DNA from: a virus
IMG/VR virus record: IMGVR_UViG_3300031886_000010
Location: 1-43,851 of that record
DNA length: 43,851 bases
Reading direction: 5' to 3' (one strand)
This document shows, one piece after another, positions 1 to 16,254 of the stretch. The notes beneath the pieces were generated by a model. That model was not told the DNA's origin. It made no database searches and saw only the letters and a list, made by a program, of their open reading frames with translations. Each line of letters starts with the position of its first letter. Within the stretch, counting starts at the first letter, position 1. The position numbers and the translations under genes were made by a program.

Positions 1-54
1 CTGGTAAGGCACTGCGTCAGAGACCACTCTGGGGAACTGAAAAAAAAGGCTTAG
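1..54 (+). CDS. possible 3' end of an upstream gene (partial)
   Basis: An open frame enters from the left edge and stops at the TAG at 52-54, ending in a Lys-rich tail (GELKKKA). The frame starting at base 3 is also open, to a TGA at 63-65, so the frame is not certain. The short Lys tail resembles the EKKC end of the gene that finishes at 8374, which also abuts one of the repeated promoters. No function can be assigned. Confidence 0.25.
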   Translation: MVRHCVRDHSGELKKKA

Positions 55-75
55 CGGCCCACTGAAAAAAACCCC

Positions 76-102
76 TCAAGTTTCTGGCGCAGATGCCGTT
101 AA
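76..102 (+). promoter_or_regulatory. sigma-28-like promoter, copy 1
   Basis: The -35-like TCAAGTTT (76-83), an 11-nt spacer and the -10-like GCCGTTAA (95-102) match the FliA/WhiG consensus TAAAGTTT-N11-GCCGATAA. An A-tract precedes it. The next ATG is at 135, with a GGAG ribosome binding site between. Confidence 0.65.
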
Positions 103-134
103 GGTATTCATAACCCAAGCCCGGAGAACACAAA

Positions 135-437
135 ATGATCACGCGAAAACGAGCAGTCGAGAACTCAAAGAACCCCCTGGGGAGCACCATCGCGGACTGG
201 CACGTCGGCCACGTCGTACGGAGCAACGGAGAGGTCCGGTACAGCATCGCAGACCCCCTCCAGCACCTCGTCGTAGTCAACGGCCCCATGGACGCGGAAA
301 CCTTCCAAGGCCATACGGTCGATTCAATCGTCCGGGACGAAGTGGACACCAACTGGCAAATGCAGTTCGGCCTCGACCCGTATCGCCGCATCAACCGGAA
401 GCCGGCGGACCTGCTCACCCTGGAGCCCACGCAATGA
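135..437 (+). CDS. unknown small phage protein, 100 aa
   Basis: I do not recognise this protein. It is an acidic-basic mixed soluble protein without membrane segments or cysteines. The start is chosen because it follows promoter copy 1 and a CGGAG ribosome binding site. It is the first complete gene of the left arm, where most genes have their own copy of the same promoter. Confidence 0.7.
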   Translation: MITRKRAVENSKNPLGSTIADWHVGHVVRSNGEVRYSIADPLQHLVVVNGPMDAETFQGHTVDSIVRDEVDTNWQMQFGLDPYRRINRKPADLLTLEPTQ

Positions 438-481
438 TCCCGCCGCCGCCGAAAAAAGATCGCACGTAGCCGAAAAAGGTG

Positions 482-508
482 TTAAGATTCTCCACGGAAT
501 GCCGTTAA
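482..508 (+). promoter_or_regulatory. sigma-28-like promoter, copy 2
   Basis: TTAAGATT (482-489), 11 nt, GCCGTTAA (501-508). The A-rich run upstream (GAAAAAGG) could act as an UP element. It drives the metallopeptidase gene starting at 557; the leader of about 40 nt contains a GGAG site. Confidence 0.7.
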
Positions 509-556
509 GGTATTCATAAGGCGGGCAACAAACCCCTCGCCTCGGAGAACAAGAAC

Positions 557-1174
557 ATGGCCAGCATCCGCACCGGAATCACCAGCACCCGCAACAAGAT
601 GACCAGCAGTGGTCGGTCCAGCCATCGGCAGTCCACCGAGCCCTTCGCTCAGGACTACTTCTTCTGGATGGCCCGTGACGGGCAGCGCAAGAAGGTCTAT
701 GACGCCGAAGCCGCATTTGGCTGGGGCGATGACTTCGGTGCAAAGCAGCGCATGAGCGAGCTGTGTGTGTACAAGGTGATCGACGCCCTGGAGAATTCCA
801 TGCTCCTCGCCGAGTACACCACGCACCCCAAGTACTTCACGCCTGACGTGACCCTCAAGGGCAAGCAGTCCGGCGGCAGCTACTGCCCCACCACGGGCGT
901 CCACGCTGGCAAGTTCACGCACGAGTACGTGATCATCCACGAGTGGGCGCACCACGCCATCACCGTGACCCTGGGCGACATTCACGCGCCCCACGGCGAA
1001 GAGTTCGTCCGGTGCCTTTTGGACGCGGTCCACGCCATCCTCGGAATCAAGGCCTACAAGGCCCTCAGCGAGGAGTTCGCACTTCGGAACGTCCGAGTGG
1101 CCACCACCAGTCTCGACATTGTGCCCCGCCTCTTCGGCGGCCCGAAGGCCCGCGACCTGGAAATCGAGGACTAG
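557..1174 (+). CDS. SprT/TIGR04338-like zinc metallopeptidase
   Basis: Likely a zinc-dependent metallohydrolase or peptidase of 205 aa. It has HEWAHH at about residues 127-132 (an HExxH zinc motif) and, some 15 residues later, HAPHGEEF, giving the third His ligand in the H-G-x-x-F context typical of SprT-like and TIGR04338 actinobacterial/phage metallohydrolases. The N-terminal 30 residues are Ser/Arg-rich and low complexity. Substrate is unknown. SprT-family proteins act on DNA-bound proteins, but that role here is inference. It stands alone behind promoter copy 2. Confidence 0.7.
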   Translation: MASIRTGITSTRNKMTSSGRSSHRQSTEPFAQDYFFWMARDGQRKKVYDAEAAFGWGDDFGAKQRMSELCVYKVIDALENSMLLAEYTTHPKYFTPDVTLKGKQSGGSYCPTTGVHAGKFTHEYVIIHEWAHHAITVTLGDIHAPHGEEFVRCLLDAVHAILGIKAYKALSEEFALRNVRVATTSLDIVPRLFGGPKARDLEIED

Positions 1175-1187
1175 CCAAAGAAAAGGC

Positions 1188-1223
1188 TAAAGACTTGACG
1201 GCAACGTGCCGTTAAGGTATTTA
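1188..1223 (+). promoter_or_regulatory. sigma-28-like promoter copy 3 overlapping a sigma-70 promoter
   Basis: TAAAGACT (1188-1195) and GCCGTTAA (1208-1215) are 12 nt apart, the only copy not at 11. Interleaved with it is a sigma-70 pair, TTGACG (1195-1200), 17 nt, TATTTA (1218-1223). It may be read by either holoenzyme. It precedes the gene at 1265. Confidence 0.65.
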
Positions 1224-1264
1224 TAAGGCGGACAACAGATAACCCCCGCTGGAGAATCAAGATC

Positions 1265-1567
1265 ATGACCATCGAAGACCAACTAGAGAACGTGCTGGAG
1301 AATAGCAACTGCGCACTCGACCTACGGGTACGACAGGGCGGAACCGCAGGCCTGCAGCAGGTAGCCAGTGCCACGTTCATGGAGTCGAGCCGTCACCTCT
1401 CGAACCTCGAAGAGGCAGAGGCGAACCTGGAAGCCGTGAAGGCGGACGCAGCCAGATTTCTGGCGACGGACGAAGCCGGCGCAGCGAGCCACGGCGAGTT
1501 CTGGCTGGCAAACTTCGTCGAGCAGCGACGGATCGAGCAGCAGGACGCAGAGGAGCTGGCACAATGA
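1265..1567 (+). CDS. small helical protein carrying module A (EEAEANL)
   Basis: A predicted alpha-helical protein of 100 aa with unknown function. Its first 75 residues are similar to the N-terminal half of the 214-aa protein at 7129-7773: both have a short Leu/Asn-rich start, a QGG segment, VAS(A)xF and then a L(S)x(I/L)EEAEANL helix. I call this shared part module A. It overlaps the next gene by 4 nt (ATGA), so the two are translationally coupled. It follows promoter copy 3 and a GGAG site. Confidence 0.7.
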   Translation: MTIEDQLENVLENSNCALDLRVRQGGTAGLQQVASATFMESSRHLSNLEEAEANLEAVKADAARFLATDEAGAASHGEFWLANFVEQRRIEQQDAEELAQ

Positions 1568-1917
1568 TCGACCGAAAGCAGCTACAGATTGTCCGCGACC
1601 AGCTGAGCCAGATCGCCAGCGACACGGCGGACATTCCGAAGAACAACAAGGCCAAGCAGGCTTTCCGGGAAGCGGAATGCCTCCTGGATGACCTGGAGAC
1701 GGCGGAAGACGCCTACAACGAGGCCCTGGAGCAAGCGCAGACCTTCGCAGACTGCAGCCCCTACCTCGCGGTTGACGCCGACGCCGACGCCGACGAGGCG
1801 GACGCGCTCATAAACGAGTCGTACGTCGATGACTGCTACGACGAAGGCGAGGCTCTCGCGAGCGCCGGCTTCGGGACCGACGAGGACTACGGCTGCTACG
1901 GCGGGGAGGACTGGTAA
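1564..1917 (+). CDS. unknown acidic protein, 117 aa
   Basis: Not recognised. Residues 1-60 are predicted helical/coiled; the C-terminal half is very acidic with an (AD)n run encoded by a GACGCC repeat, and ends rich in Tyr, Gly and Asp. The strong negative charge could suit a DNA-mimic or a protein decoy, but nothing proves this. Overlaps the upstream gene by 4 nt, so probably co-translated. Confidence 0.7.
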   Translation: MIDRKQLQIVRDQLSQIASDTADIPKNNKAKQAFREAECLLDDLETAEDAYNEALEQAQTFADCSPYLAVDADADADEADALINESYVDDCYDEGEALASAGFGTDEDYGCYGGEDW

Positions 1918-1919
1918 CC

Positions 1920-2183
1920 ATGAGCGACATTCAACCCGAATACGCATGCATGGAGAGTGAGTTTGTCGCGCGCCTCAAGGAAGGCACGGCCTACTCATAC
2001 CTCGACACGGCCGGACGCCTCAGCCATCGCATTATGATCGGTGGAGACGTCCTGGAAGGGGCCCCCATGGACGTCTTCGTCCTGAAGGACTCCAGCTGGC
2101 CCGGGCACTTCGGAAGCTGGCAGGTACAGCCGGTGATGCCCATGCCCTACCTCCCTAGCCCGGAAGACCTCCCGGACCTCTAA
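1920..2183 (+). CDS. unknown small protein, 87 aa
   Basis: Not recognised. Soluble, with a Pro-rich C-terminus (MPMPYLPSPEDLP). The start lies 2 nt after the previous stop with GGGGAGGA upstream, so it belongs to the 1265-2183 operon. Confidence 0.65.
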   Translation: MSDIQPEYACMESEFVARLKEGTAYSYLDTAGRLSHRIMIGGDVLEGAPMDVFVLKDSSWPGHFGSWQVQPVMPMPYLPSPEDLPDL

Positions 2184-2206
2184 GAAAAAAAAACTGAAGA
2201 AAGGTG

Positions 2207-2233
2207 TAAAGATTCTCACTGGAATGCCGTTAA
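2207..2233 (+). promoter_or_regulatory. sigma-28-like promoter, copy 4
   Basis: TAAAGATT (2207-2214), 11 nt, GCCGTTAA (2226-2233), preceded by an A-rich run. Leader of about 40 nt to the ATG at 2281 with a GGAG site. Confidence 0.7.
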
Positions 2234-2280
2234 GGTATTCATAAGGCGGACAACATAACCCCCCGCTGGAGATCAAGACA

Positions 2281-2517
2281 ATGAAGACCATCGACCTCAA
2301 GTACCTCACCTGCTCCATGCCCGGGACCATCATCGGCAACGCCAAAGTGTTCTCGCCCTTCGCAGCTCACGCGGAAGTAGTTGCCGAAGACCTGCAGGCT
2401 GGTGACGAGGACTGGACCTACGAGGTGGTGACTGTCACCGACGGCTGGCCGGTAATCGGCAAGGCCATTCAAATCTTCGACGAGGAAGGCGAATTCGTCT
2501 CCTTCTGGACCGAGTAG
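2281..2517 (+). CDS. stand-alone module B protein, 78 aa
   Basis: An unknown 78-aa protein that is a free-standing version of a module fused elsewhere. Residues about 22-78 (KVFSPFAAHAE...YEVVTVTD...FVSFWTE) match the C-terminus of the 7129-7773 protein (KVFETLDAAEFF...YEVIGVTD...FVAYWTE) and that of the 7934-8374 protein. Acidic, no membrane segment. It is followed by a GCTTAC-rich intergenic cassette with a hairpin. Confidence 0.7.
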   Translation: MKTIDLKYLTCSMPGTIIGNAKVFSPFAAHAEVVAEDLQAGDEDWTYEVVTVTDGWPVIGKAIQIFDEEGEFVSFWTE

Positions 2518-2660
2518 TTAGCCCAGTACCCGAGGATGCCGCTTACGTTAACTCTAAGCATACGCGCCTCCGCTTACTGGATTTAGGGCCCTCCCAGGAG
2601 GGGGGCCCGCTTACCTTCAACGCGGCTTACCCCGCACGGGCCCATGTACCCATAAAGCCC
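2518..2660 (+). repeat. intergenic GCTTAC cassette with GC-rich hairpin (copy 1)
   Basis: This non-coding stretch has four GCTTAC hexamers and a 23-nt hairpin at 2586-2608 (GGGCCC arm, CCTCCCAGGAGGGG core). Bases 2571-2634 are nearly the same as 7851-7914. The hairpin has no T-run, so a rho-independent terminator is only possible, not clear. Confidence 0.6.
2586..2608 (+). terminator. hairpin without T-run, possible terminator
   Basis: GGGCCC(T)CC / GG(G)GGGCCC stem, small loop, downstream of the gene ending at 2517. The same hairpin recurs at 7866-7888, also behind a module B gene. Confidence 0.35.
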
Positions 2661-2687
2661 TAAAGTTCCGGCCCCACTGGCCGATAA
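2661..2687 (+). promoter_or_regulatory. sigma-28-like promoter, copy 5 (leaderless)
   Basis: TAAAGTTC (2661-2668), 11 nt, GCCGATAA (2680-2687): 15 of 16 positions match the E. coli FliA consensus. The ATG at 2695 begins exactly 7 nt after the -10, so transcription should start at or next to the start codon. A CGGCC/GGCCG inverted repeat lies in the spacer. Confidence 0.75.
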
Positions 2688-2694
2688 GGTTATC

Positions 2695-3159
2695 ATGAGC
2701 AACGAAGAAAGACTACAGAACGAAAGCGAGAACGGAATCAAAGTCCTCTCTGTGGACGGCGTCCCGGTGCCCTGCCGGACATTCGCCGTAGGAGACGGCG
2801 TTCACTGGAACGCAGGAACCGACTGCGACAGCGGTACGGTAGTACGGGTCACCCCGAAGTCCATCTACGTTGTAGAGGATGAGGCCAAACTTCTCAACTC
2901 CACCGATTCGGGCGCACCGGACGCGCTCAAGTTCTACCCCGGGGGATTTGTCGGCCACACGGCAGGCAGGCAGCGATACGAGTTTTCGCCGGGTTCCGGT
3001 GAGCCCATCCGATTCAGCCTGCGGACCCGCCGGGACAGGGCCGGGGCGGAAACCACCCTCTTCAAGCAGTCTGGCACTGGCAGTGCCACCACGGGGTCGA
3101 TGCGGAACTGGGGAGTCCTCTACCACGGTCGCCACAAGCACTACGACTACAACTTTTAG
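2695..3159 (+). CDS. conserved-type phage hypothetical, 154 aa, predicted leaderless
   Basis: A 154-aa protein of the kind often found in small-gene regions of phages: a beta-rich N-terminal part (GVPVPCRTFAVGDGVHWNAGTDCDS and a VVRVTPKSIYVVED strand), an RQRYEFSP segment, and an HYDYNF end. Function unknown; the fold suggests a small barrel. The start at 2695 sits 7 nt behind promoter copy 5. AAGG lies 5 nt upstream and could pass for a Shine-Dalgarno, but would lie inside the promoter. Confidence 0.75.
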   Translation: MSNEERLQNESENGIKVLSVDGVPVPCRTFAVGDGVHWNAGTDCDSGTVVRVTPKSIYVVEDEAKLLNSTDSGAPDALKFYPGGFVGHTAGRQRYEFSPGSGEPIRFSLRTRRDRAGAETTLFKQSGTGSATTGSMRNWGVLYHGRHKHYDYNF

Positions 3160-3188
3160 TCGGCGGTCAGAAAAATGCGAAAAAAGGG

Positions 3189-3215
3189 TAAAGGTTCCGG
3201 CCCGCAGGCCGATAA
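3189..3215 (+). promoter_or_regulatory. sigma-28-like promoter, copy 6 (leaderless)
   Basis: TAAAGGTT (3189-3196), 11 nt, GCCGATAA (3208-3215), then exactly 7 nt to the ATG at 3223. The spacer again carries a CGGCC/GGCCG inverted repeat. Confidence 0.7.
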
Positions 3216-3222
3216 GGAAGGC

Positions 3223-3372
3223 ATGGAAAACGGAACTATCACCATCGACCTCGGCAAAGCCCTCCGGGCGGAGAGCCGCCGATCCAACCGGATGCCCCAA
3301 GGCGGGCGTCATGGAACCCCCAAGGGGAAGAAGGGTTACAAGCGTAACCCCAAGCACAGGAAGGGACACTAG
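3223..3372 (+). CDS. small basic phage protein, 49 aa
   Basis: A short, very basic protein with the end GKKGYKRNPKHRKGH. The open frame extends up to 3175, but that would place the start upstream of promoter copy 6; the ATG at 3223 is exactly 7 nt behind the -10 as in the three other leaderless genes, so I prefer it. The sequence 5' of this ATG (AAGGAAGG) could also serve as a ribosome binding site. The charge suggests nucleic-acid binding; function is unknown. Confidence 0.65.
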   Translation: MENGTITIDLGKALRAESRRSNRMPQGGRHGTPKGKKGYKRNPKHRKGH

Positions 3373-3373
3373 A

Positions 3374-3703
3374 ATGCCTGCTTACACCAGAATGGAAGGC
3401 TTCCTTGGCATGAGCTACCTGCTCAGTCACTACACCGTCGCGCCCGCTCGCCTAGTTGAGGCGTTCGGCACCCCCGGTGAGAGCGATGGCTGCAAGACGA
3501 GCGGGGAGTACGTCTTCACCGACAAGGCAGGGAAGTGCTTCACCCTGTACGATTGGAAGTCAACCAGCCTCTATGAAGGCTGCGGCCCCTCTCCCTCAGA
3601 CTTCTGGGCTTCCGAAGCCCCCTACGAGTTCCACATCGGCGGAAACGAGGGAACCGATGTACTGGAAGCCGCCGAATGGCTCGACAACCTGGGGCTCAGG
3701 TAA
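3374..3703 (+). CDS. unknown protein, 109 aa
   Basis: Not recognised by name. It has a conserved-looking core (GEYVFTDKAGKCFTLYDWKSTSLY) and a C-terminal EFHIGG...DVLEAAEWL helix. The start at 3374 is 1 nt after the previous stop and has AGGAAGGG upstream; internal Met codons at 3392 and 3410 are alternatives. Same operon as 3223. Confidence 0.65.
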   Translation: MPAYTRMEGFLGMSYLLSHYTVAPARLVEAFGTPGESDGCKTSGEYVFTDKAGKCFTLYDWKSTSLYEGCGPSPSDFWASEAPYEFHIGGNEGTDVLEAAEWLDNLGLR

Positions 3704-3704
3704 G

Positions 3705-4382
3705 ATGGCCCTCGACTACCACTACTACAACTTGCACAAGAATTGCTGGAGCATCCAGAACCGTGGGCTCGTCATTGGGCACGTGGCTGAGCGCCTGATA
3801 GACGCACCGGAGTTCGTAGTGCGCCCCGCGGGGCAACGCGCGGTCCGGGAGCAAAAACGAAAGAACGTCCACGCATTTGTCAAGGGGGAGGCGGTTCGCG
3901 GTGGTCTGGTGCGACGTCGGGGCGGACTTCAAGGCCCAGTTCGCACAGAGCCTTGCGGCAAATCGGTTCTTCCCGGCGAGACAGGTCTTCGGACAGACTG
4001 GGCGACGTGGCAGCTAATGGACTCCTGGGAGGAGGCGTCTTACAACCCCTACCGGAACGCACCCGAGGTGGCGACGTTCTACCTCAAGTCCACCGGGGAG
4101 GCCATTGTGTCGGCGGAGTTATGCTTCTTGACCCGCGACAGAAAAATGTTTGTCTGGGACCCCGTCACCTTGGCCGAAGAAAACCCTCAACGAAGGCGAG
4201 AACGTCGCGTTGCTCAGCGCGTGCGGGCTGTAGAAAAGCTCACCGGGTGCCCATGGTGCCGTGCGGCCACCGACCCCGAACACCGCCACTGCTTGGGCAG
4301 TCCGAAGCTGTTCACCTCGGAAGAAGCTACCAAGGCGAAGACCGCAATCGACAAGCTCCGAGCATGGAAAATGTGGCCTTGA
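3705..4382 (+). CDS. chimeric or frameshifted phage protein (225 aa as read)
   Basis: Read without correction this is one 225-aa frame, but it looks like a damaged composite. Residues 1-65 (YYNLHKN..., ending RKNVHAFVKG) and residues about 112-150 (YNPYRN...FVWDP) look like two related parts of a common small phage protein. Between them another frame gives a more protein-like reading (FAVVWCDVGADFKAQF) that stops at a TAA at 4015-4017 overlapping an ATG at 4017, as expected if one base is extra near 3893. A second shift near 4182 would give KTLNEGENVALLSACGL and a stop at 4233. The last 20 residues come from a 61-bp exact copy of the tape-measure gene. Function unknown; possibly a pseudogene pair. 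Confidence 0.5.
   Translation: MALDYHYYNLHKNCWSIQNRGLVIGHVAERLIDAPEFVVRPAGQRAVREQKRKNVHAFVKGEAVRGGLVRRRGGLQGPVRTEPCGKSVLPGETGLRTDWATWQLMDSWEEASYNPYRNAPEVATFYLKSTGEAIVSAELCFLTRDRKMFVWDPVTLAEENPQRRRERRVAQRVRAVEKLTGCPWCRAATDPEHRHCLGSPKLFTSEEATKAKTAIDKLRAWKMWP
4305..4365 (+). repeat. 61-bp exact inverted copy of a tape-measure gene segment
   Basis: Identical, in opposite orientation, to 43005-43065. Both copies are read in the same frame and encode KLFTSEEATKAKTAIDKLRA. Here it forms the end of the 3705-4382 frame; at the right it lies inside the tape-measure protein. Confidence 0.9.
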
Positions 4383-4449
4383 CTGAAAAAAAGTGTTAAG
4401 ATTCCCCGCCAGATGCCGTTAAGGTATTCATAACCCAAGCACGGAGAGC
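4368..4449 (+). repeat. promoter cassette duplicated at 4839-4920
   Basis: About 80 bp beginning AAAATGTGGCC and running through promoter copy 7 to the ribosome binding site is repeated at 4839-4920 with only two or three differences in the -10 downstream region. The repeat start falls in the 3' end of the preceding gene in both places, so it overwrites gene ends. Confidence 0.85.
4396..4422 (+). promoter_or_regulatory. sigma-28-like promoter, copy 7
   Basis: TTAAGATT (4396-4403), 11 nt, GCCGTTAA (4415-4422), behind an A7 tract. Leader of about 24 nt with CGGAG to the ATG at 4453. Confidence 0.7.
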
Positions 4450-4452
4450 AAC

Positions 4453-4857
4453 ATGGCAACGCAATTTGACGACGACGCAGGCACCCCGGTGGCGGTTATC
4501 ACGTACCAGGGGGACGCCAACGGTCGAGAGCTTTGGATTTTTGCCCCCCTGTCGCACTACAGCCCCAACGATCCGGGCGAGGATTCAATCCTCACCGGCT
4601 CCGACGGCACCACGGCCACCCTGCCCGAATTGGTGGCCTTCGCCGACCGCGAGAAACTCGCCATTAAATTCCTGCCCAGGATTATGCCGGGGAGCGCGCT
4701 GTGGCCAAAGAGCCGCGACGAGGCCGAAGAGGCCGAGGCTGCGCGCATCCAGAGCGACATCGACGCCATCGAGTGCGACGAGATCGAGTCGCAGTTCGTC
4801 GATGACTGCGCCCCCCGAGGGGACGACCTTGGCCGAAGAAAATGTGGCCTTGACTGA
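4453..4857 (+). CDS. unknown acidic protein, 134 aa
   Basis: Not recognised. The N-terminal part is beta-rich and a helix (EEAEAARIQSDIDAIE) follows. The end as read (RGDDLGRRKCGLD) lies in the duplicated promoter cassette. One base fewer in the C6 run at about 4810-4815 would instead give APEGTTLAEENVALTEKKC, ending in the EKKC seen at the end of the 7934-8374 protein; so the C-terminus may be frameshifted. Starts 30 nt behind promoter copy 7 with GGAG. Confidence 0.6.
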   Translation: MATQFDDDAGTPVAVITYQGDANGRELWIFAPLSHYSPNDPGEDSILTGSDGTTATLPELVAFADREKLAIKFLPRIMPGSALWPKSRDEAEEAEAARIQSDIDAIECDEIESQFVDDCAPRGDDLGRRKCGLD

Positions 4858-4920
4858 AAAAAAGTGTTAAGATTCCCCGCCAGATGCCGTTAAGGTAGAC
4901 ATAACCCAAGCACGGAGAGC
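4839..4920 (+). repeat. promoter cassette, second copy
   Basis: Near-identical to 4368-4449; see that entry. The main difference is TAGACA in place of TATTCA just after the -10 element, which leaves the sigma-28-like boxes intact. Confidence 0.85.
4867..4893 (+). promoter_or_regulatory. sigma-28-like promoter, copy 8
   Basis: TTAAGATT (4867-4874), 11 nt, GCCGTTAA (4886-4893). Downstream TATTCA is changed to TAGACA, so a sigma-70 reading is weak here while the sigma-28 reading is untouched. Confidence 0.7.
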
Positions 4921-4927
4921 CCAAGCA

Positions 4928-5746
4928 ATGATGAAGCAGGCGACAATCGAGAAATACACCGCAATCGCAACCGAAGCGGGATACAGGGCAGACCGCGACG
5001 ATAACACGACCTTCGTGGCTTGCGGGCGCTGCGGCGGCGCGGGAGTCATCCATTTCTTCGGTCACGTAGAGGGCGGAATCTGCTTCAAGTGCCGCGGTGC
5101 CAAGGGTAGCCGCCAGTCGCTAGTGACGCTGGGCAAGCGGGTTGACGCCCGCGTCAAGCGTGCCGATAAGAAGGTCCGGGCGGAAGAGGCGGAGCGCGAA
5201 GCCGCTCATGTCAAGGCTAAGCTTTTCTTGGCCGACCGCCCGGAACTGAAAGAGGCGCTCGACATGGCCCCCGAGGGCGACCCCCGCAGGGACATGGCCG
5301 AGAAGCTGGAATACTGGGGCAGCCTCTCGGATAAGCAGGTAGCCTTTGCGCTTACTCTGCGAGACCGCGATCAAAACCGCGAGGCCGAGGACGCCGCCCC
5401 CAAGGGGACCGCCCCCGAGGGTCGCCAGCAGATCGAGGGCCGGATCGTGGGCACGAAGGTCTACGACGGGGACTACGGGGAGGTCACGAAAATCCTCGTG
5501 AAGTGCGAGGATGAGGACGGGACCTTCAAGGTTTTCGTGAGTCTCCCGAGCGGTCTGGGCAAGAGCAAGGACCCCGAGGGTCGCTGGGAGAGCGCCCGGG
5601 ACCTCGCTGACCGGAAGGCCCGCGTCCGGCTTACGGCAACGTGGACCCGGAAAGAGGACGACTTCGCGACGGGCAAACGCCCTGCCAAGGCCGAGCTTCT
5701 CCCCTCCCCGTGGGGCCTACCGTTAAGAGATGCACAGGACGAATAG
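4928..5746 (+). CDS. DnaJ-type zinc-ribbon plus OB-like protein, 272 aa
   Basis: Residues 33-60 hold a CGRCGGAG...CFKCRGAKG pair of CxxCxG motifs, as in the DnaJ zinc finger, probably binding one zinc. A charged helical middle (residues 75-155) follows. The C-terminal third (GRIVGTKVYDGDYGEVTKILVKC...KVFVSLPSG...VRLTATW) looks like a small OB-type beta barrel, an arrangement seen in proteins of actinobacterial phages. This makes a nucleic-acid-binding role plausible. ATG codons at 4928 and 4931 are both possible starts. It is one of the larger genes of the left arm. Confidence 0.7.
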   Translation: MMKQATIEKYTAIATEAGYRADRDDNTTFVACGRCGGAGVIHFFGHVEGGICFKCRGAKGSRQSLVTLGKRVDARVKRADKKVRAEEAEREAAHVKAKLFLADRPELKEALDMAPEGDPRRDMAEKLEYWGSLSDKQVAFALTLRDRDQNREAEDAAPKGTAPEGRQQIEGRIVGTKVYDGDYGEVTKILVKCEDEDGTFKVFVSLPSGLGKSKDPEGRWESARDLADRKARVRLTATWTRKEDDFATGKRPAKAELLPSPWGLPLRDAQDE

Positions 5747-5800
5747 TGCTAAAGATTGACAGCCGGGTACCGATAAGGTATACATAACCCAAACGGGAGA
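5740..5800 (+). repeat. 61-bp promoter repeat shared with 6019-6079
   Basis: The stretch from the preceding stop codon region (CGAATAG) through the dual promoter to the GGGAGA ribosome binding site is repeated without visible difference at 6019-6079. Duplication of a whole promoter unit, including the end of the upstream gene. Confidence 0.85.
5750..5784 (+). promoter_or_regulatory. dual sigma-28-like / sigma-70 promoter, copy 9
   Basis: Sigma-28 boxes: TAAAGATT (5750-5757), 11 nt, ACCGATAA (5769-5776). Overlapping sigma-70 boxes: TTGACA (5756-5761), 17 nt, TATACA (5779-5784). Part of a 60-bp repeat shared with copy 10. Confidence 0.75.
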
Positions 5801-5805
5801 CTGTG

Positions 5806-6024
5806 ATGGCCACCGGATACGACATTCTTGACGACTTGACCGAAGAGATCGTCCCGAGGGCCGACCTGATTGCCCTCAGAGACGAGATTACGGGTCTGCT
5901 CGACACTGCACGTCAAAAAGTCATGCTCTGGGAAGACGAGCTAGAGTATCTGGCCGAGGCGGTCGAGGCTGGCGATGCCGCCGCCTTGGAGCAGCTGGCA
6001 GATTTTCACAAAATCCACGAATAG
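5806..6024 (+). CDS. unknown helical acidic protein, 72 aa
   Basis: Not recognised. Predicted all-helical, acidic, no Cys. A GTG at 5803 is in frame, but the ATG at 5806 has better spacing to GGGAGA. Behind dual promoter copy 9. Confidence 0.65.
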   Translation: MATGYDILDDLTEEIVPRADLIALRDEITGLLDTARQKVMLWEDELEYLAEAVEAGDAAALEQLADFHKIHE

Positions 6025-6079
6025 TGCTAAAGATTGACAGCCGGGTACCGATAAGGTATACATAACCCAAACGGGAGAT
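6019..6079 (+). repeat. 61-bp promoter repeat, second copy
   Basis: Same sequence as 5740-5800; contains dual promoter copy 10 and overlaps the end of the gene finishing at 6024. Confidence 0.85.
6028..6062 (+). promoter_or_regulatory. dual sigma-28-like / sigma-70 promoter, copy 10
   Basis: TAAAGATT (6028-6035), 11 nt, ACCGATAA (6047-6054); overlapping TTGACA (6034-6039), 17 nt, TATACA (6057-6062). Confidence 0.75.
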
Positions 6080-6082
6080 CAC

Positions 6083-6277
6083 ATGACCATGAGCCCGATG
6101 AAACCGACAAACTACGCCGAAACGAAGGCCCTTCGTACCTCCGCGAAACTCGACGAAATGCGAGACGCGATCCGTGCCGCCGCGAGCGCTGCCTACCGCG
6201 CGAACCAGAGCGCGAAGACTGACGAGACGAGGCGCGTTTTGGACGCTCTCGCTAGCCTGCTTGCGGAAGTGTCATGA
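6083..6277 (+). CDS. unknown helical protein, 64 aa
   Basis: Not recognised. Ala-rich, predicted helical, slightly basic. GGGAG lies 6 nt before the ATG at 6083. Ends in an ATGA overlap with the next small gene. Confidence 0.65.
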   Translation: MTMSPMKPTNYAETKALRTSAKLDEMRDAIRAAASAAYRANQSAKTDETRRVLDALASLLAEVS

Positions 6278-6441
6278 ACGTCCACATAGCACTGAACACG
6301 CAGTGGAGGAAACCGGGCGAGCGCTACAAAGTTACCATCACGGCTCAGGAGGACGGGAAGGTACTCGCAAGGTTCTTCACGTCCGACAGCGTCCTGTTCA
6401 TGGACGATAAAGAGATCATAGCAAAGGCGGGCCTCACATGA
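6274..6441 (+). CDS. unknown small protein, 55 aa
   Basis: A 55-codon frame coupled to the previous gene by ATGA. It reads as a beta-rich start (YKVTITAQEDGKVLARFF) and a short helix (DDKEIIAKAG). The coupling, the third-position GC bias and the tight fit to the next promoter support it as real. Function unknown. Confidence 0.6.
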   Translation: MNVHIALNTQWRKPGERYKVTITAQEDGKVLARFFTSDSVLFMDDKEIIAKAGLT

Positions 6442-6454
6442 CCACGAATAGTGC

Positions 6455-6481
6455 TAAAGTTCCGGCCGCACTGGCCGATAA
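6455..6481 (+). promoter_or_regulatory. sigma-28-like promoter, copy 11 (leaderless)
   Basis: TAAAGTTC (6455-6462), 11 nt, GCCGATAA (6474-6481), then 7 nt to the ATG at 6489. Almost the same sequence as copy 5, up to and including the first codons (ATGAGCAAC). Confidence 0.75.
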
Positions 6482-6488
6482 GGTTATC

Positions 6489-7016
6489 ATGAGCAACAAC
6501 GACACCTACCGCAAAGAGCCCGCCAACAACCCGTACGTCTTCAAGAACGCCCTGTCCCTGGAGGCGAACCCGCCCATCGGCCAGAACCCGCAGCTCGTGG
6601 ACTACGACGGCGAGTTCGACAACCTTGCCGAGGTGGCCCGAGGGCACGCCGACCAGATCAAGCTCCACTACCTGTTCCCCCGAAGGGACCACGGCGGAGT
6701 GCAGGCCGGCCTGGGCGAAGAGTTCGTATCGGTGGAGATCGACAACACCGACCTCCGAGCCGGCATGGCCTACGTGGCCGACAAACTGACCAACAACGAG
6801 GAAGGCTTCCGCTACACCTCTGAGGGCGTCCGGAACGAGCACGGCGAGCAGGTCTGGCTCATGGAGGGATGGTCTTCGTTCCTTAACCTCGTGACGGAAG
6901 TGCTCCTGGAGCGGGGCACCCTCGATCAACGGCCGCAGTTCGTAGCCTTCGCGATCCTGGTCGCGGCATTCGGCGCGGACAACGCAGAGTGCTACACCCG
7001 AGGCACCGTAGTATGA
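6489..7016 (+). CDS. unknown protein, 175 aa, predicted leaderless
   Basis: Not recognised. Soluble, acidic, with helices towards the C-terminus (FLNLVTEVLLERG, FVAFAILVAAFGADN). The frame is open from 6438, but that start is upstream of promoter copy 11; the ATG at 6489 sits 7 nt behind the -10 as in three other genes. The first four residues (MSNN/MSNE) match those of the 2695 gene because promoter and start were copied together. Confidence 0.7.
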   Translation: MSNNDTYRKEPANNPYVFKNALSLEANPPIGQNPQLVDYDGEFDNLAEVARGHADQIKLHYLFPRRDHGGVQAGLGEEFVSVEIDNTDLRAGMAYVADKLTNNEEGFRYTSEGVRNEHGEQVWLMEGWSSFLNLVTEVLLERGTLDQRPQFVAFAILVAAFGADNAECYTRGTVV

Positions 7017-7102
7017 CTGCGGCTTACTTGCCGCTTACATTTTCTGCGGCTTACTTGCCGCTTACATTTTCTGCGGCTTACTTGCCGCTTACCTTCAACG
7101 TA
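7017..7102 (+). repeat. 27-bp tandem repeat with paired GCTTAC motifs
   Basis: Unit TGCGGCTTACTTGCCGCTTAC plus ATTTTC, three copies, the last diverging into CTTCAACG. It gives six GCTTAC hexamers in about 85 bp between two genes. Each unit can also pair GCGGC with GCCGC as a small hairpin. No promoter of the sigma-28 type is seen here. Confidence 0.85.
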
Positions 7103-7128
7103 ACTCAAATGGAACGGAGAACGCACAA

Positions 7129-7773
7129 ATGACTGCCAACCCACAGTACCCGGTTTTAACGCTGAAGTACCTTCTGAACGACATCCTCAAGAATTGCGAC
7201 CGCGCACTAGAAATGCCCCCCTCGCAAGGCGGAAGCGGCATTGCGCAGACCGTCGCCAGCGCGCTGTTCTGCAAGGCCAGCGGCCACCTGTCCTACATCG
7301 AAGAGGCCGAGGCCAACCTCGCTCCCCTTAGGGAGAACGCCGAGCGGTTCACGGGCGTACTGTCGCAGTCTTACCTGTCCTACATCGAAGAGGCAGAGGC
7401 CAACCTCGCTATCGCGAAGGAGAACGCCGAGCGGTTCCTGGGGACCGACGAGGCCAAGGCAGCAATCAGCGGCGAAGCTCTCTCAACGGCCAATGCGGCC
7501 CTATCTTTAGCCGACAGAGATATTCTCAAGGACATCCGTGCCGTGAAGACGATTGAGAAGAAACGATTGCCCGCCGAGACGAAGGTCTTTGAGACACTCG
7601 ACGCTGCGGAGTTCTTCGCCGACGTCTTGAACGAGGGCGACGAGGACGGCTGGGCCTACGAGGTGATCGGGGTGACCGACCACCAGCGCAACCTGACCAC
7701 CAACATCGTGGCTTACGCCATCGAAGTGTCCGACGAGGACGAAGAGTTCGTCGCTTACTGGACCGAAATTTAG
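7129..7773 (+). CDS. A-A'-B module fusion protein, 214 aa
   Basis: Unknown function, but clear architecture. Residues 1-70 match the 1265-1567 protein (module A). The helix YIEEAEANLAPLRENAERF is then repeated as YIEEAEANLAIAKENAERF. The C-terminal 60 residues match the 2281-2517 protein (module B: VF, YEV, VTD, FVAYWTE). A stretch of about 115 bp (7496-7620) is almost identical to 7979-8112 in the next gene. The start at 7129 has GGAG upstream. It looks assembled by local recombination from neighbours. Confidence 0.7.
   Translation: MTANPQYPVLTLKYLLNDILKNCDRALEMPPSQGGSGIAQTVASALFCKASGHLSYIEEAEANLAPLRENAERFTGVLSQSYLSYIEEAEANLAIAKENAERFLGTDEAKAAISGEALSTANAALSLADRDILKDIRAVKTIEKKRLPAETKVFETLDAAEFFADVLNEGDEDGWAYEVIGVTDHQRNLTTNIVAYAIEVSDEDEEFVAYWTEI
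7496..7620 (+). repeat. coding repeat shared with 7979-8112
   Basis: From GCGGCCCTATCTTTAGCC to the GGAGTTCTTCGC stretch the two copies are nearly identical. The second copy has an extra inserted duplicate of ACAGAGATATTCTC. Encodes DRDILKDIRAVKTIEKKRLP plus the start of module B. Confidence 0.85.
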
Positions 7774-7930
7774 CCCGGTACCCGAGGGTTGCGGGTTGCC
7801 TCCAGTCCTAGGTCTGGAAAGTGCGCCGCGCGTAATGCACCGACCCCCTCCGCTTACCGGATTAAGGGCCCTCCCAGGAGGGGGGCCCGCTTACCTTCAA
7901 CGCGGCTTACCCCGCTTACCTTGAAAAGGA
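7774..7930 (+). repeat. intergenic GCTTAC cassette with hairpin (copy 2)
   Basis: Non-coding. Bases 7851-7914 repeat 2571-2634 with few changes, including the 23-nt hairpin (7866-7888) and several GCTTAC hexamers. Both cassettes follow a gene that ends in module B (FW/YWTE), so gene end and cassette were probably copied as one unit. Confidence 0.75.
7866..7888 (+). terminator. hairpin without T-run, possible terminator
   Basis: Same GGGCCC-based hairpin as at 2586-2608, downstream of the gene ending at 7773. Confidence 0.35.
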
Positions 7931-7933
7931 AAC

Positions 7934-8374
7934 ATGGGCATGGGTTTTGACGACATCGACATCGACGGCGTGCTGGCGGCGGCCCTATCTTTAGCCGACA
8001 GAGATATTCTCACCACGAACAGAGATATTCTCAAGGACATCCGTGCCGTGAAGACGATTGAGAAGAAACGATTGCCCGCCGGGACGAGGGTCTTTGATAC
8101 ACTCGACGCTGCGGAGTTCTTCGCATCGGTCTTGACCGAGGGCCGAGCATGGGCAGGTCCGCGCCACTTTGTGGGCCGGACCTACATCGTGACCGGCGTG
8201 ACCGACAGGCAGCGGTTTCTCGATGACCGCATCGCAGGCTTCGTGGTCGAAGTCGAGGACGAAGACGGGGAGTTCGCCGGTCAACTAACACGCTTCCGCT
8301 ACACCGCCCCCGACGGGTCCACCCTTCTGCTACACACTAGCAGGGCCGGTGGCAGTAGCGAAAAAAAGTGTTAA
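7934..8374 (+). CDS. module B paralogue, 146 aa
   Basis: Unknown function; paralogue of the C-terminal half of the preceding protein. It keeps the DRDIL helix (doubled here by a small insertion) and module B, then adds a different tail (LTRFRYTAPDG...) that ends SSEKKC. The last codons lie in the A-tract of promoter copy 12, so the promoter element supplies the C-terminus. AAAGGAAAC precedes the ATG at 7934; a second ATG at 7940 is possible. Confidence 0.65.
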   Translation: MGMGFDDIDIDGVLAAALSLADRDILTTNRDILKDIRAVKTIEKKRLPAGTRVFDTLDAAEFFASVLTEGRAWAGPRHFVGRTYIVTGVTDRQRFLDDRIAGFVVEVEDEDGEFAGQLTRFRYTAPDGSTLLLHTSRAGGSSEKKC

Positions 8375-8397
8375 GATTCTGTGGCGGGTACCGATAA
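8371..8397 (+). promoter_or_regulatory. sigma-28-like promoter, copy 12 (leaderless)
   Basis: TTAAGATT (8371-8378), 11 nt, ACCGATAA (8390-8397), then 7 nt to the ATG at 8405. It overlaps the stop of the previous gene. Confidence 0.7.
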
Positions 8398-8404
8398 GGT
8401 ACTC

Positions 8405-8569
8405 ATGAACAACGGAGAGCAGGAGGGCACCCCGGCGAGGTGCGCTATACTCTTCCAAAAGGTCATTCATAAAGAAACCCAGGTAACGGGTTCGGAGACA
8501 ATAAGATTAAGGGTGGAACGTCTCCGCACCGACCTTACGAATCACAATCCCACGAGAGATCGGAGTTAA
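8405..8569 (+). CDS. possible small protein, 54 aa, predicted leaderless
   Basis: Not recognised; basic C-terminus. Codon use is less GC-rich than its neighbours and a sigma-70-like -10 (TATACT, 8446-8451) lies inside it, which argues against a real gene. In favour, the ATG stands exactly 7 nt behind promoter copy 12 as in the other leaderless genes. The alternative is that this stretch is a leader for the membrane protein at 8573. Confidence 0.4.
   Translation: MNNGEQEGTPARCAILFQKVIHKETQVTGSETIRLRVERLRTDLTNHNPTRDRS
8446..8451 (+). promoter_or_regulatory. possible -10 box of a sigma-70 promoter
   Basis: GCGC-TATACT-CT resembles the -10 context of the middle-region promoters (GC before, TC after), but the -35 position reads GAGGGC, which is poor. 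It could serve the membrane gene at 8573. Confidence 0.3.
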
Positions 8570-8572
8570 CAC

Positions 8573-8674
8573 ATGATAATCGTAATCTCAGGCATTATCC
8601 TGTCCGCAGGAGTTATCGGCCTCGGACTTGCCCTATACGTCTTGTACGATGGCTACCCGTGGGATGGCAAATGA
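8573..8674 (+). CDS. 33-aa single-pass membrane peptide
   Basis: A short frame: IIVISGIILSAGVIGLGLAL forms one membrane helix, followed by a short polar tail (YDGYPWDGK). CGGAG lies 7 nt before the ATG, and its end overlaps the next start (ATGA). Function unknown; first of a long series of membrane and exported proteins. Confidence 0.6.
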   Translation: MIIVISGIILSAGVIGLGLALYVLYDGYPWDGK

Positions 8675-8901
8675 GCCACGATGGTCACGACGAAGAGGAG
8701 GTGGAATACGTCCTCCTCAGCGACATACGCGACGAGGTTGACAGGCTTCACGTTTTTCTCAACAATAGCCTCGACCAACTAGCTGACCCGGAGTTAAGCG
8801 ACGAACGGGCGTGGGAGATGGAGCAATTCATCGAGCGCACAGCAATAGCGCTTATCGAGAAAATCTCATATATGGTGGTTCAGGAAGAGGAGGACTGCTG
8901 A
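8671..8901 (+). CDS. unknown acidic helical protein, 76 aa
   Basis: Not recognised. Helical and acidic (DEEEVEYVLLSDIRDEVDRL). The frame is open from 8659, but the ATG at 8671 overlaps the previous stop and is the likely start. Coupled to the membrane peptide before it. Confidence 0.65.
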   Translation: MSHDGHDEEEVEYVLLSDIRDEVDRLHVFLNNSLDQLADPELSDERAWEMEQFIERTAIALIEKISYMVVQEEEDC

Positions 8902-8902
8902 C

Positions 8903-9217
8903 ATGATGGAAGTTAACTACGAAAGCGAAGCGCTCAACGGTATCGGTAGGTACCGCAATTCGGAGACGGGCATCCGCATCTACACCCACACGATGGAAGT
9001 GGAAGTGTATTGGGAAGAGTGGTGCCCCCTCAACGAATCGTCTTACCAAGCGGCGCGCACCCTGTACGTGGCTGCCTGTATCCATGAGATGTTGGACGAG
9101 AAGGAGCGACACGCGCTAATCATTGCGGAGATCGAAGACTCCGACATCATCGTCGAGGGTGACGGGGAGACCGAAGACCTCTTCGACTTCCAAGTCCTCA
9201 AGATCACAGAAGAATAA
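8903..9217 (+). CDS. unknown acidic protein, 104 aa
   Basis: Not recognised. Beta-rich N-terminus, a helix around residues 45-70 (SYQAARTLYVAACIHEMLDEKE) and an acidic end. GGAGG lies 9 nt before the ATG at 8903; ATG 8906 is an alternative. Followed by a short hairpin and a strong promoter. Confidence 0.65.
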   Translation: MMEVNYESEALNGIGRYRNSETGIRIYTHTMEVEVYWEEWCPLNESSYQAARTLYVAACIHEMLDEKERHALIIAEIEDSDIIVEGDGETEDLFDFQVLKITEE

Positions 9218-9234
9218 GAGGCCCCGAGCCTCTT
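9216..9234 (+). terminator. short hairpin after the 8573-9217 operon
   Basis: AAGAGGC / GCCTCTT stem of 7 bp with a 5-nt loop, overlapping the -35 of the next promoter. No long T-run. Confidence 0.35.
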
Positions 9235-9261
9235 GACAACCGGGCCCATGTGGGCTATACT
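9233..9261 (+). promoter_or_regulatory. sigma-70 promoter
   Basis: TTGACA (9233-9238), 17 nt, TATACT (9256-9261): near-perfect consensus. It begins the operon that starts at 9301, with CTGGAGG as ribosome binding site. Confidence 0.85.
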
Positions 9262-9300
9262 CCAAATACCTCAAAAAAACATACCCCTGGAGGCAAGAAT

Positions 9301-9579
9301 ATGCCCATCTTACTTGAGATCCTCCCTCCCGAGCCGGGTGCCGCCTTACCCCCGGAGGGCATCCCCCCGGGTGCCGCCTTACCCCCGGAGGGCATCCCCC
9401 CGGGTGTGGGCGCCCCACGGGAGGCTGAAGCCCCGCTTACCGAGGAGGTCGAGACGGGAACAGCAGAATTCATGAGCAAGGACGGGCTCATGATCCGGGT
9501 AAAGTTCGTAGACTCAGAGGTTGAGGAATGGGTACCCATCGAGAGAGTCAGGATGGACGGCGGGGAGAACGCAGCATGA
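9301..9579 (+). CDS. Pro-rich tandem-repeat protein, 92 aa
   Basis: Not recognised. Residues 10-36 contain two copies of an 11-residue unit (GAALPPEGIPP) encoded by a 33-bp tandem repeat at 9336-9401. The C-terminal part (LMIRVKFVDSEVEEWVPIERVRM) is beta-like. The frame is open from 9250 but the promoter and the GGAGG site place the start at 9301. Overlaps the next gene by 4 nt. Confidence 0.7.
   Translation: MPILLEILPPEPGAALPPEGIPPGAALPPEGIPPGVGAPREAEAPLTEEVETGTAEFMSKDGLMIRVKFVDSEVEEWVPIERVRMDGGENAA
9336..9401 (+). repeat. 33-bp tandem repeat, two copies
   Basis: Two identical 33-bp units in tandem inside the gene at 9301, in frame, so copy number can change without breaking the gene. Confidence 0.9.
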
Positions 9580-9857
9580 CCGACGAGCAAGTGCTAGATA
9601 CCGTGATCCGGCTGCGGAACAACATCTCCGCCTCATTCATATACCACCGACTAACGGACAAGGGCGAGCGAAGTCGCGCTGCGGTCGCGCGTCGGGACGG
9701 GGTACACCGAGGCGAGGACGACCCTGAGATCAAGACGACAACCAATCTGACAGGCTCATCGGTCGCGATGTACGAACCGAGTCGAGAAGCATTTATCAGC
9801 GCGCTGGACGACGCGGAAAAGGTGATTGTCCATTTGCGCCAGGGAGTCGAAACTTGA
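9576..9857 (+). CDS. unknown protein, 93 aa
   Basis: Not recognised. Mixed charge, helical ends (DEQVLDTVIRLRNNI; AFISALDDAEKVIVHL). The ATG at 9576 overlaps the previous stop; ends overlapping the TTG start of the next gene. Confidence 0.65.
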   Translation: MTDEQVLDTVIRLRNNISASFIYHRLTDKGERSRAAVARRDGVHRGEDDPEIKTTTNLTGSSVAMYEPSREAFISALDDAEKVIVHLRQGVET

Positions 9858-10090
9858 CCCCCGGACTCCTGTCCGTCATTAGCTTGCTGGGCCCCTTCGG
9901 GACCCTTGCAGCCTTTGTTGTCTTCAACGTCGCGTACGGTGCGCTGGCGCGGCCTGAATGGGGTAAGCGGGGTAAGCCTTTAACTGCGGCCCTCTGGTTC
10001 TGCGCATGGGCCGCGTCGGGCCTCTGGTTAGTCGCAACCGTCTGGTTCGTCGCAACCGTCTGGTTCGTCGCAACCGTGGCAGGCCCTTGA
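9854..10090 (+). CDS. small membrane protein with VWFVAT repeats, 78 aa
   Basis: Two hydrophobic segments (about residues 5-30 and 44-76). The second is built on a six-residue repeat, WFVATV, from an 18-bp tandem repeat at about 10029-10077. TTG start at 9854 overlapping the previous stop (TTGA). Function unknown; a holin-like or envelope role is possible but not shown. Confidence 0.6.
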   Translation: MTPGLLSVISLLGPFGTLAAFVVFNVAYGALARPEWGKRGKPLTAALWFCAWAASGLWLVATVWFVATVWFVATVAGP

Positions 10091-10115
10091 CGAAGGCGAG
10101 GTGGTAGGCTACACT
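10087..10115 (+). promoter_or_regulatory. sigma-70 promoter
   Basis: TTGACG (10087-10092), 17 nt, TACACT (10110-10115). The -35 overlaps the stop of the previous gene. It leaves a leader of about 100 nt before the ATG at 10224. Confidence 0.7.
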
Positions 10116-10223
10116 TCTCCATACGAAAGAGTGACCCCCCGGGGCGCGGCCTGAAGCGGATAAAACAACTAAAAAAATCCAACCAGCTGCCCCCGGGGGA
10201 TCTAACCCTACGGACAAAGAAAA
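10116..10223 (+). other. long structured leader
   Basis: A non-coding leader with two self-complementary GC runs, CCCCCCGGGG near 10134-10143 and CCCCCGGGGG near 10191-10200, that can pair with each other or fold separately. Between them lies an A-rich stretch. No strong Shine-Dalgarno precedes the ATG at 10224. The leader may control translation, but I recognise no riboswitch class. Confidence 0.35.
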
Positions 10224-10808
10224 ATGAACCCCTCTGATCTCACAATCGACTTTTCCGTTACGGGAGATGAGTTTACCGAAAAACTCAAGACCCTCGCCAT
10301 CGTTGCCGAAGTACACGGCGACACATTCTTGTCGGACATCGGCAAGAGGAAGGCAGATTCCATGACACCGAAACGACCCAGCCGCAAGGACAGGGAAGCC
10401 GAAGCAGGGCGTGTTATCAACTCCATTATTGACGAATCGTATCACGGTGAGCGATACGTGACGTCCGACTTTTCCGCCATGACACAGACCGGGCGGTCAT
10501 TCGTAAAACGCCTATTGCACAAGAGCCCGCGCATCCAAAGGGTTGGCCAGTTTTGGCGGGTCAACGCATCGCACGAAGCGCTTACCTCAGAACCGTACAC
10601 CCACGAACTTGAGCCGTCGCTTGTCGAGCGAAGCCGCATTGGCCTTATTCAGGAGTTAGGTTCGCTCCTAAAGACCGCAAACGAGATTGAAGGCGGGGGA
10701 AGCGCGGCTTGGCCCCGAGGCGAGATCCTTGAGCAGATGGAGTCGATCCGGTCCTACCTTTCTGATCTCGACCAATACAACCCAGAAGAGGAGAACTCAG
10801 ATGACTAG
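10224..10808 (+). CDS. unknown protein, 194 aa, possible DNA-binding domain
   Basis: Not recognised. Residues about 50-110 (PSRKDREAEAGRVINSIID...RSFVKRLLHKSPRIQRVGQFWRVN) alternate helices with a W-containing strand and could be a winged-helix domain, but I see no clear motif. The C-terminal 70 residues are helical and acidic. It sits between the long leader and a group of membrane proteins and overlaps the next start by 8 nt. Confidence 0.6.
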   Translation: MNPSDLTIDFSVTGDEFTEKLKTLAIVAEVHGDTFLSDIGKRKADSMTPKRPSRKDREAEAGRVINSIIDESYHGERYVTSDFSAMTQTGRSFVKRLLHKSPRIQRVGQFWRVNASHEALTSEPYTHELEPSLVERSRIGLIQELGSLLKTANEIEGGGSAAWPRGEILEQMESIRSYLSDLDQYNPEEENSDD

Positions 10809-11196
10809 ATACAAGTACCCCCCGGTGGCTAAAGCCCTATCGCTTATTATTGGTTTTCTAATCGGCGGACTTATGTTCGGCCTGATTGGGGGAGAAGCAA
10901 CAGGTAGCCACCCGCGCACCCCCTCGGTGCAAGAACATGAGACGGCCAACCTTCTTTGCGCTGTTCTGGCCAATAGGCCGGGTGGTCGAGCGCGCTCTAT
11001 CTCTTGTGTCCCGAAGGGCGATTACGCTGTATCGGGGGACGTCACCGGGTATACCGACACCAACGGAGTGTGGATTCCGATTCCCAGCTGCGGCACGTTG
11101 CCGTACATCCCCGGTGGGCAACCGTGCCTGCCTCCGCCTGTCACTCCTCCTGGGTGCTGGACCATCGCCCCCTTTGGCGTGGTGTGCGACAGATGA
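10801..11196 (+). CDS. membrane-anchored Cys/Pro-rich exported protein, 131 aa
   Basis: One N-terminal membrane helix (about residues 9-31, ALSLIIGFLIGGLMFGLIGG), followed by about 100 residues with six Cys and many Pro, Gly and Tyr, which suggests a disulfide-bonded periplasmic domain. It has no lipobox. The frame is open upstream, but the ATG at 10801 overlaps the previous stop and gives a sensible membrane topology. Function unknown. Confidence 0.65.
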   Translation: MTRYKYPPVAKALSLIIGFLIGGLMFGLIGGEATGSHPRTPSVQEHETANLLCAVLANRPGGRARSISCVPKGDYAVSGDVTGYTDTNGVWIPIPSCGTLPYIPGGQPCLPPPVTPPGCWTIAPFGVVCDR

Positions 11197-11831: not shown

Positions 11832-11833
11832 TC

Positions 11834-13647: not shown

Positions 13648-13657
13648 ATGACCGGAC

Positions 13658-13686
13658 TTGACACCGCTCATTGAGTGCGCTAGACT
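13658..13686 (+). promoter_or_regulatory. sigma-70 promoter
   Basis: TTGACA (13658-13663), 17 nt, TAGACT (13681-13686). Leader of about 18 nt with GGAGAGG to the ATG at 13712. Confidence 0.75.
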
Positions 13687-13711
13687 CTCGCTCTTAACTG
13701 GAGAGGGAAAA

Positions 13712-16204: not shown

Positions 16205-16232
16205 TTGACAGTGGGGGCGCTTACGCTATAAT
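16205..16232 (+). promoter_or_regulatory. sigma-70 promoter
   Basis: TTGACA (16205-16210), 16 nt, TATAAT (16227-16232). It starts at the stop of the pentapeptide gene. The spacer contains CGCTTAC. The downstream ATG at 16231 is inside the -10, so translation must start at 16255. Confidence 0.85.
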
Positions 16233-16254
16233 GTCCACCGATACGGAGGATTCC

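Follow-up and report, generated by a model that had tools for sequence, protein, structure and literature searches.

Introduction

Phage early genes normally stand behind strong housekeeping promoters; SPO1 and phiEco32 code their own sigma factors, and sigma-54-type promoters have reportedly been seen in Pseudomonas phage YuA. Here we describe twelve bipartite elements of the sigma-28 (FliA/WhiG) type in the first 8.4 kb of IMG/VR virus record IMGVR_UViG_3300031886_000010, a metagenomic tailed phage (43,851 bases, 57.6% G+C; this whole stretch is hereafter called the window). The window phage would be like YuA, SPO1, and phiEco32 in tying a block of genes to a non-housekeeping sigma factor, but it differs from them in that the boxes are those of sigma-28 and that the window yielded no phage-coded sigma gene. 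That a phage relies on an alternative sigma factor is known in kind.

Among described promoters, those of flagellar and chemotaxis genes read by FliA have the consensus TAAAGTTT-N11-GCCGATAA (PMC7286023). The window sites share with them both boxes, the 11-nucleotide (nt) gap, and the expected start distance, but they are found on a phage genome, upstream of genes of unknown function, half of them carry GCCGTTAA, and GG lies directly 3' of the -10 box in all 12. The FliA attack-phase regulon of Bdellovibrio bacteriovorus, in which TTAAG-N16-CCGATA occurs at 66% of 140 mapped attack-phase promoters (PMC3627812), is alike in its TTAAG/TAAAG -35, its CCGATA -10, and the many non-flagellar genes under sigma-28; that regulon, however, is chromosomal, and phi1422, the only Bdellovibrio phage checked, is without the set. 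Bdellovibrio, where FliA acts as a global regulator, thereby sets a precedent for hosts whose sigma-28 regulon is wide.

In genome plan the window resembles Pamexvirus phiH1, and with the Pamexvirus/Bradleyvirinae siphophages (phiH1, PaMx28, DLP4) it shares early and replication genes on one strand, convergent tail genes, and a polymerase of only ~43% identity to those of named phages, none of which gave a megablast match to the window. The promoter set, in contrast, was in none of the named phages checked, with none or one weak site each in phiH1, PaMx28, DLP4, Donnerlittchen, Mallos, VBv52, MMDA13, and VCLv21. An earlier note on this DNA, made from the sequence alone, had stated that no phage with such a set is described. 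This held in the open-licence literature, where no phage with FliA or sigma-28 promoters was found; a review of flagellotropic phages names FliA just in a reference title (PMC9266447).

Results and Discussion

Twelve Sites of Sigma-28 Type

All twelve sites listed in the earlier note were recovered at the places it gave (Table 1), each before an open reading frame (ORF) start and on the + strand between 76 and 8397, with a TAAAG-type -35 box followed by a GCCGWTAA -10 box. The regular spacing that had been claimed was likewise seen, the gap being 11 nt in 11 of the 12 sites and 12 nt only at 1188. Every site ends 8-50 nt 5' of an ORF start, a zone that comprises 7.6% of + strand positions. Judged by these features and those presented below, the twelve elements probably serve as promoters for RNA polymerase holoenzyme with a sigma-28 (FliA/WhiG)-type factor, which is most likely supplied by the host.

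Table 1. Positions of the sigma-28-type sites and of selected sigma-70-type promoters in the window.
Feature	Coordinates	Strand	Boxes and gap	Gene context
Site 1	76..102	+	TCAAGTTT-N11-GCCGTTAA	upstream of ORF 135-437
Site 2	482..508	+	TTAAGATT-N11-GCCGTTAA	upstream of ORF 557-1174
Site 3	1188..1215	+	TAAAGACT-N12-GCCGTTAA (sole 12-nt gap); also TTGACG-N17-TATTTA	upstream of ORF 1265-1567
Site 4	2207..2233	+	TAAAGATT-N11-GCCGTTAA	upstream of ORF 2281-2517
Site 5	2661..2687	+	TAAAGTTC-N11-GCCGATAA	ATG of ORF 2695-3159 exactly 7 nt past box, probably leaderless
Site 6	3189..3215	+	TAAAGGTT-N11-GCCGATAA	ATG of ORF 3223-3372 exactly 7 nt past box; gene and site have a counterpart in contig G001
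Site 7	4396..4422	+	TTAAGATT-N11-GCCGTTAA	upstream of ORF 4453-4857
Site 8	4867..4893	+	duplicate of site 7	upstream of ORF 4928-5746
Site 9	5750..5776	+	TAAAGATT-N11-ACCGATAA; also TTGACA-N17-TATACA	upstream of ORF 5806-6024
Site 10	6028..6054	+	duplicate of site 9	upstream of ORF 6083-6277
Site 11	6455..6481	+	near-copy of site 5	ATG of ORF 6489-7016 exactly 7 nt past box
Site 12	8371..8397	+	TTAAGATT-N11-ACCGATAA	ATG of ORF 8405-8569 exactly 7 nt past box
Sigma-70-type promoter, 11/12	9233..9261	+	TTGACA-N17-TATACT	3' of the sigma-28-type block
Sigma-70-type promoter	13658..13686	+	TTGACA-N17-TAGACT	contrast promoter
Perfect sigma-70 promoter	16205..16232	+	TTGACA-N16-TATAAT	head of replication block; probable start codon 16255, GGAG before it

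The copies at 2661 and 6455, which had been singled out as matching TAAAGTTT-N11-GCCGATAA at 15 of 16 positions, do so, and the copy at 3189 does as well. When the strict consensus was applied to both strands with gaps of 10-12 nt, seven places in the window matched at 14 or more of 16 positions, whereas 20 Markov simulations gave no such match; with W permitted at two positions and the gap fixed at 11 nt, the window gave 10 matches of at least 15/16 (null 0) and 12 of at least 14/16 (null 0.02). A weight matrix trained on nine of the sites, for which its scores are circular, placed the 11 gap-11 sites at 30.7-33.7 and the next best place in the window at 15.8, and by this interval the set is discrete. 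The -10 box agrees with the consensus at 7-8 of 8 positions in every site. Across nine deduplicated sites, mean information per position was 1.37 bits for the -35 box and 1.78 for the -10 box, compared with 0.73 for the spacer; the boxes are thus more conserved than the spacer, which fits selection acting on them.

A Second Promoter Class Downstream

The earlier note had described the set as controlling the left arm of the phage. The set is real at 0-8.4 kb, but "left arm" is too wide a term, as no site lies beyond 8.4 kb, past which promoters of sigma-70 type are found; the early region of the window seems to extend to about 16 kb, beyond the promoter set. A sigma-70 scan of window positions 1-17000 gave no + match in 0-8.4 kb and six + matches from 8738 to 16232, one of them perfect and one, at 8738, inside a putative coding frame. 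None of the 12 sites corresponded to the pattern sought (TTGACA, 16-18 nt, TATAAT), while the same scan does detect promoters scoring 12/12 and 11/12 in other parts of the window. Three copies had been said to fit sigma-70 also, which stands in part: 1188, 5750, and 6028 have TTGAC(A/G)-N17-TATWYA, but in all three the sixth position of the -10 hexamer is not T, so that none is listed by a scan requiring this T. Since sigma-70 matches on the + strand begin only at ~8.7 kb, two promoter classes are present and the set is not merely a divergent form of the host sigma-70 promoter. It would seem that the host possesses an ordinary sigma-70 and that the left block is of a different promoter class.

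Predicted Transcript Starts

The seventh and eighth nucleotides after the -10 box are CA in 11 sites and TA in one, and at four sites (2661, 3189, 6455, 8371) the A at nt 8 is the first base of an ATG. The chance of at least four such ATGs among 12 sites is ~3e-5 if the sites are independent, which, being partly copies, they are not entirely. At the other eight sites a leader with a GGAG/GGGAG-type ribosome site intervenes. Such a fixed offset to ATG would be expected if sigma-28 initiated leaderless mRNAs, and the mRNA may be leaderless at the four sites, with the caveat that TAAGG of the box could act as a ribosome site in three of these four. The 7-nt ATG offset recurs in the related contig G001 (27342) and in contigs G018 (e.g., 13832), G026, and G035. 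The last two (69-71 kb; loci 58% G+C) each hold one 16/16 site (L071 3476; L082 4680, minus strand) with the ATG exactly 7 nt past the box, and these sites stand before homologous proteins of 78 amino acids (aa).

Relatives of the Window Phage and Unrelated Phages with Similar Sets

The nearest relatives found were the IMG/VR contigs G001 (31 kb) and G036 (54.7 kb), which are collinear with the window at ~45-70% identity for the main replication proteins. The gene at 3223, whose product is a basic protein of 49 aa, has a homologue in G001, upstream of which TTAAGG...ACCGATAGG is kept and which starts without a separate ribosome site. Two more sites before genes were found in G001 by matrix scan, and two or three weak sites lie in the early arm of G036. 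Among relatives of the window's 570-aa protein, only those of G001 and G036 were close, the others being at most 41% identical and without a set; relatives of the ribonucleotide reductase had no promoter sets either, and it was the match to G036 that revealed this collinear relative. The absence of the full set from these relatives indicates that the large set belongs to the lineage of the window phage.

IMG/VR was also scanned for the consensus, and five of the contigs with several sites were read at length. Eight sites fall in the first 9.2 kb of G024 (79 kb), each 24-39 nt 5' of an ATG; about nine lie near the right end of G018 (88 kb) on the minus strand; about nine stand before genes in G003 (70 kb); and G023 (51 kb) and G005 (137 kb; about ten strong sites) carry further sets. 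Strong sites exceeded simulations in all five. G003, G018, G023, and G024 are phages, as portal, primase-helicase, or polymerase genes are present, and G005 was taken as viral on its IMG/VR classification. Additionally, three sites in the GCCGTTAA form occur in L014, a contig with a terminase-like gene as judged by eye; a scan for the GCCGTTAAGG form returned L014 again together with a match, present in two copies, that falls within coding-like DNA. Because G003, G005, G018, G023, G024, and L014 are not close to the window phage, the arrangement probably arose more than once.

Taken together, the sigma-28-type identity put forward in the earlier note is supported by the boxes, the spacing, a set far beyond chance, its distinctness from the sigma-70 promoters of the window, the site kept in G001, and the similar sets in unrelated phages; transcription by FliA and dependence on motility are the portion of that proposal that we infer.

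Host Sigma-28 as the Simplest Reading

The earlier note had also proposed a search for a sigma factor gene in the rest of the genome. None was detected in the 43.9 kb of this incomplete genome, from which the head-gene part is absent, whether with the Pfam models of regions 2 and 4, in a Pfam scan covering 50 window proteins, or with phmmer using the sigma factor of G036 as query. At permissive thresholds no sigma was counted in G001, where a weak Sigma70_r4 match was rejected, as the 170-aa protein reads by eye as HNH-type, and G003, G018, G023, and G024 gave no Sigma70_r2 or r4 match. With neither the window nor these last four contigs yielding a sigma gene, the simplest reading is host sigma-28.

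After injection, host RNA polymerase with sigma-28 would transcribe the 0-8.4 kb block, which consists of small genes mostly of unknown function, from many closely spaced starts. Transcription would begin at the eighth nucleotide past the -10 box, four transcripts starting at the ATG itself and the others carrying a leader of 21-42 nt with its ribosome site; ordinary sigma-70 promoters would serve the downstream early and replication genes. The block would be on only where sigma-28 is active, that is, in flagellated cells past hook completion or in attack-phase cells of a Bdellovibrio-like predator. As to timing and purpose, this suggests that the window phage and several unrelated phages time or restrict infection to swimming cells. 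It is about an even question whether several unrelated phage lineages have independently placed early genes under the host flagellar sigma, forming a motility-gated class that starts its programme in motile or attack-phase cells alone and whose early mRNAs are partly leaderless. If the block is indeed tied to sigma-28, infection would depend on host physiology (whether the cell swims, has completed its hook, and has exported the anti-sigma FlgM), phage success would be linked to motility or predation, and the set would offer a simple genomic marker for predicting phages of motile or predatory bacteria.

Evidence Against and Alternative Explanations

Several observations weigh against promoters read by host sigma-28. 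Duplication inflates the copy number, with 4396/4867, 5750/6028, and 2661/6455 being copy or near-copy pairs, and the twelve copies are not independent events; the -10 box is GCCGTTAA instead of GCCGATAA in 6 of the 12 sites; and in the nearest relatives, G001 and G036, the sites number no more than one to three and are weaker. When bacterial genomes were scanned for exact copies of the commonest site form in the window, only two matches were returned, in taxa not suggesting a host. Bdellovibrionota as host is suggested by the FliA attack-phase regulon and by a 30% match of the G024 portal to a Silvanigrella phage, but neither the Silvanigrella phage nor phi1422 has a site excess, and this host is a guess. 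Furthermore, G036 codes a 192-aa sigma with regions 2 and 4, RpoD/RpoS-like, in its early arm (L178 8020-9060 = G036 48020-49060, minus strand), and G005 codes a divergent 331-aa sigma-like protein (L042 15710-16705 = G005 115710-116705) whose region 4 is apparently cut short C-terminally. It is possible that a phage sigma lies in the missing part of the window contig, which we consider less likely than host sigma-28.

These two proteins, one from a collinear relative and one from a contig with about ten strong sites, together with the missing head-gene part of the window, would fit a phage-encoded sigma of FliA-like specificity, located in the missing part or too divergent for detection, that reads the sites, the block then being a middle or late regulon not bound to motility. 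This is unlikely, given that no sigma appears in the window or G001 at permissive thresholds, that the sigma of G036 is RpoD/RpoS-like in a genome with few such sites, and that G003, G018, G023, and G024 have sets without a detected sigma gene; the left end of the window also seems to equal that of G036, so that the early arm, where the G036 sigma lies, is presumably largely present. It is less probable still that host sigma-70 reads the sites through a degenerate -10 (TATTCAT, TATACA), with the upstream GCCGWTAA box adding an extra contact or a binding site for a phage regulator. The TTGAC(A/G)-N17-TATWYA forms at 1188, 5750, and 6028 point in this direction, as does the G001 site at 28215, which also fits TTGCGC-N18-TATTAT, but a TTGACA-like -35 is missing at the other nine sites, TATWNA is missing at 2661, 3189, and 6455, none of the 12 passes the scan that detects sigma-70 promoters elsewhere, and the GCCGWTAA box is the most conserved part of the element. 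Many copies before genes on one strand of one arm, partly spread by segmental duplication, are also what an operator of a phage repressor or activator would show, in a role like that of the mycobacteriophage stoperators; we find this improbable for an asymmetric element that lacks a consistent palindrome, that has two boxes at a fixed distance and an invariant pyrimidine-A step resembling a start, and whose boxes and spacing recur in unrelated phages. Least credible of all is that TAAGG in GCCGATAAGG is simply the ribosome-binding site at the four close sites, perhaps generally, and the upstream box a coincidence: TAAGG does lie 5 nt before the ATG at 2661, 6455, and 8371, but the other eight sites keep the box and have a separate GGAG-type site beyond it, and the -35 box stands at a fixed distance.

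Repeats and Genome Plan

The left arm (1-9000) consists of repeated gene and promoter duplications: 7514-7638 recurs at 8019-8143 (94%), 2567-2635 recurs at 7847-7915 (97%), and the gene at 1265-1567 resembles part of 7129-7773. An exact tandem repeat of 27 nt x 2.8 (CTGCGGCTTACTTGCCGCTTACATTTT) occupies 7017-7092 between two genes, and GCTTACC-rich stretches related to it lie at 2540-2640 and 7850-7920. The product of ORF 557-1174 has a HEWAHH metallopeptidase-like motif and no Pfam match.

The + strand codes VapE/Prim-Pol primase, DUF2800, and Enc34 ssDNA-binding proteins, a family A DNA polymerase, ribonucleotide reductase, and an SNF2 helicase, and the minus strand codes tail genes that reach a tape-measure protein at the right end of the window. 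No head gene was recognised in the window, which is therefore a genome fragment. No tRNA and no Rfam match (riboswitch or other RNA family) was found across the 43,851 bases, and hence no tRNA-based host clue. A 202-aa protein (11834-12442) has a weak C-terminal PEP-CTERM match of 20.3 bits, slightly under the cut-off; this is an uncommon feature for a phage and might hint at the host. Finally, a tandem repeat of 114 nt x 2.6 (93%) lies at 33235-33535 within the minus-strand ORF 32868-33959, which probably encodes a tail or fibre protein.

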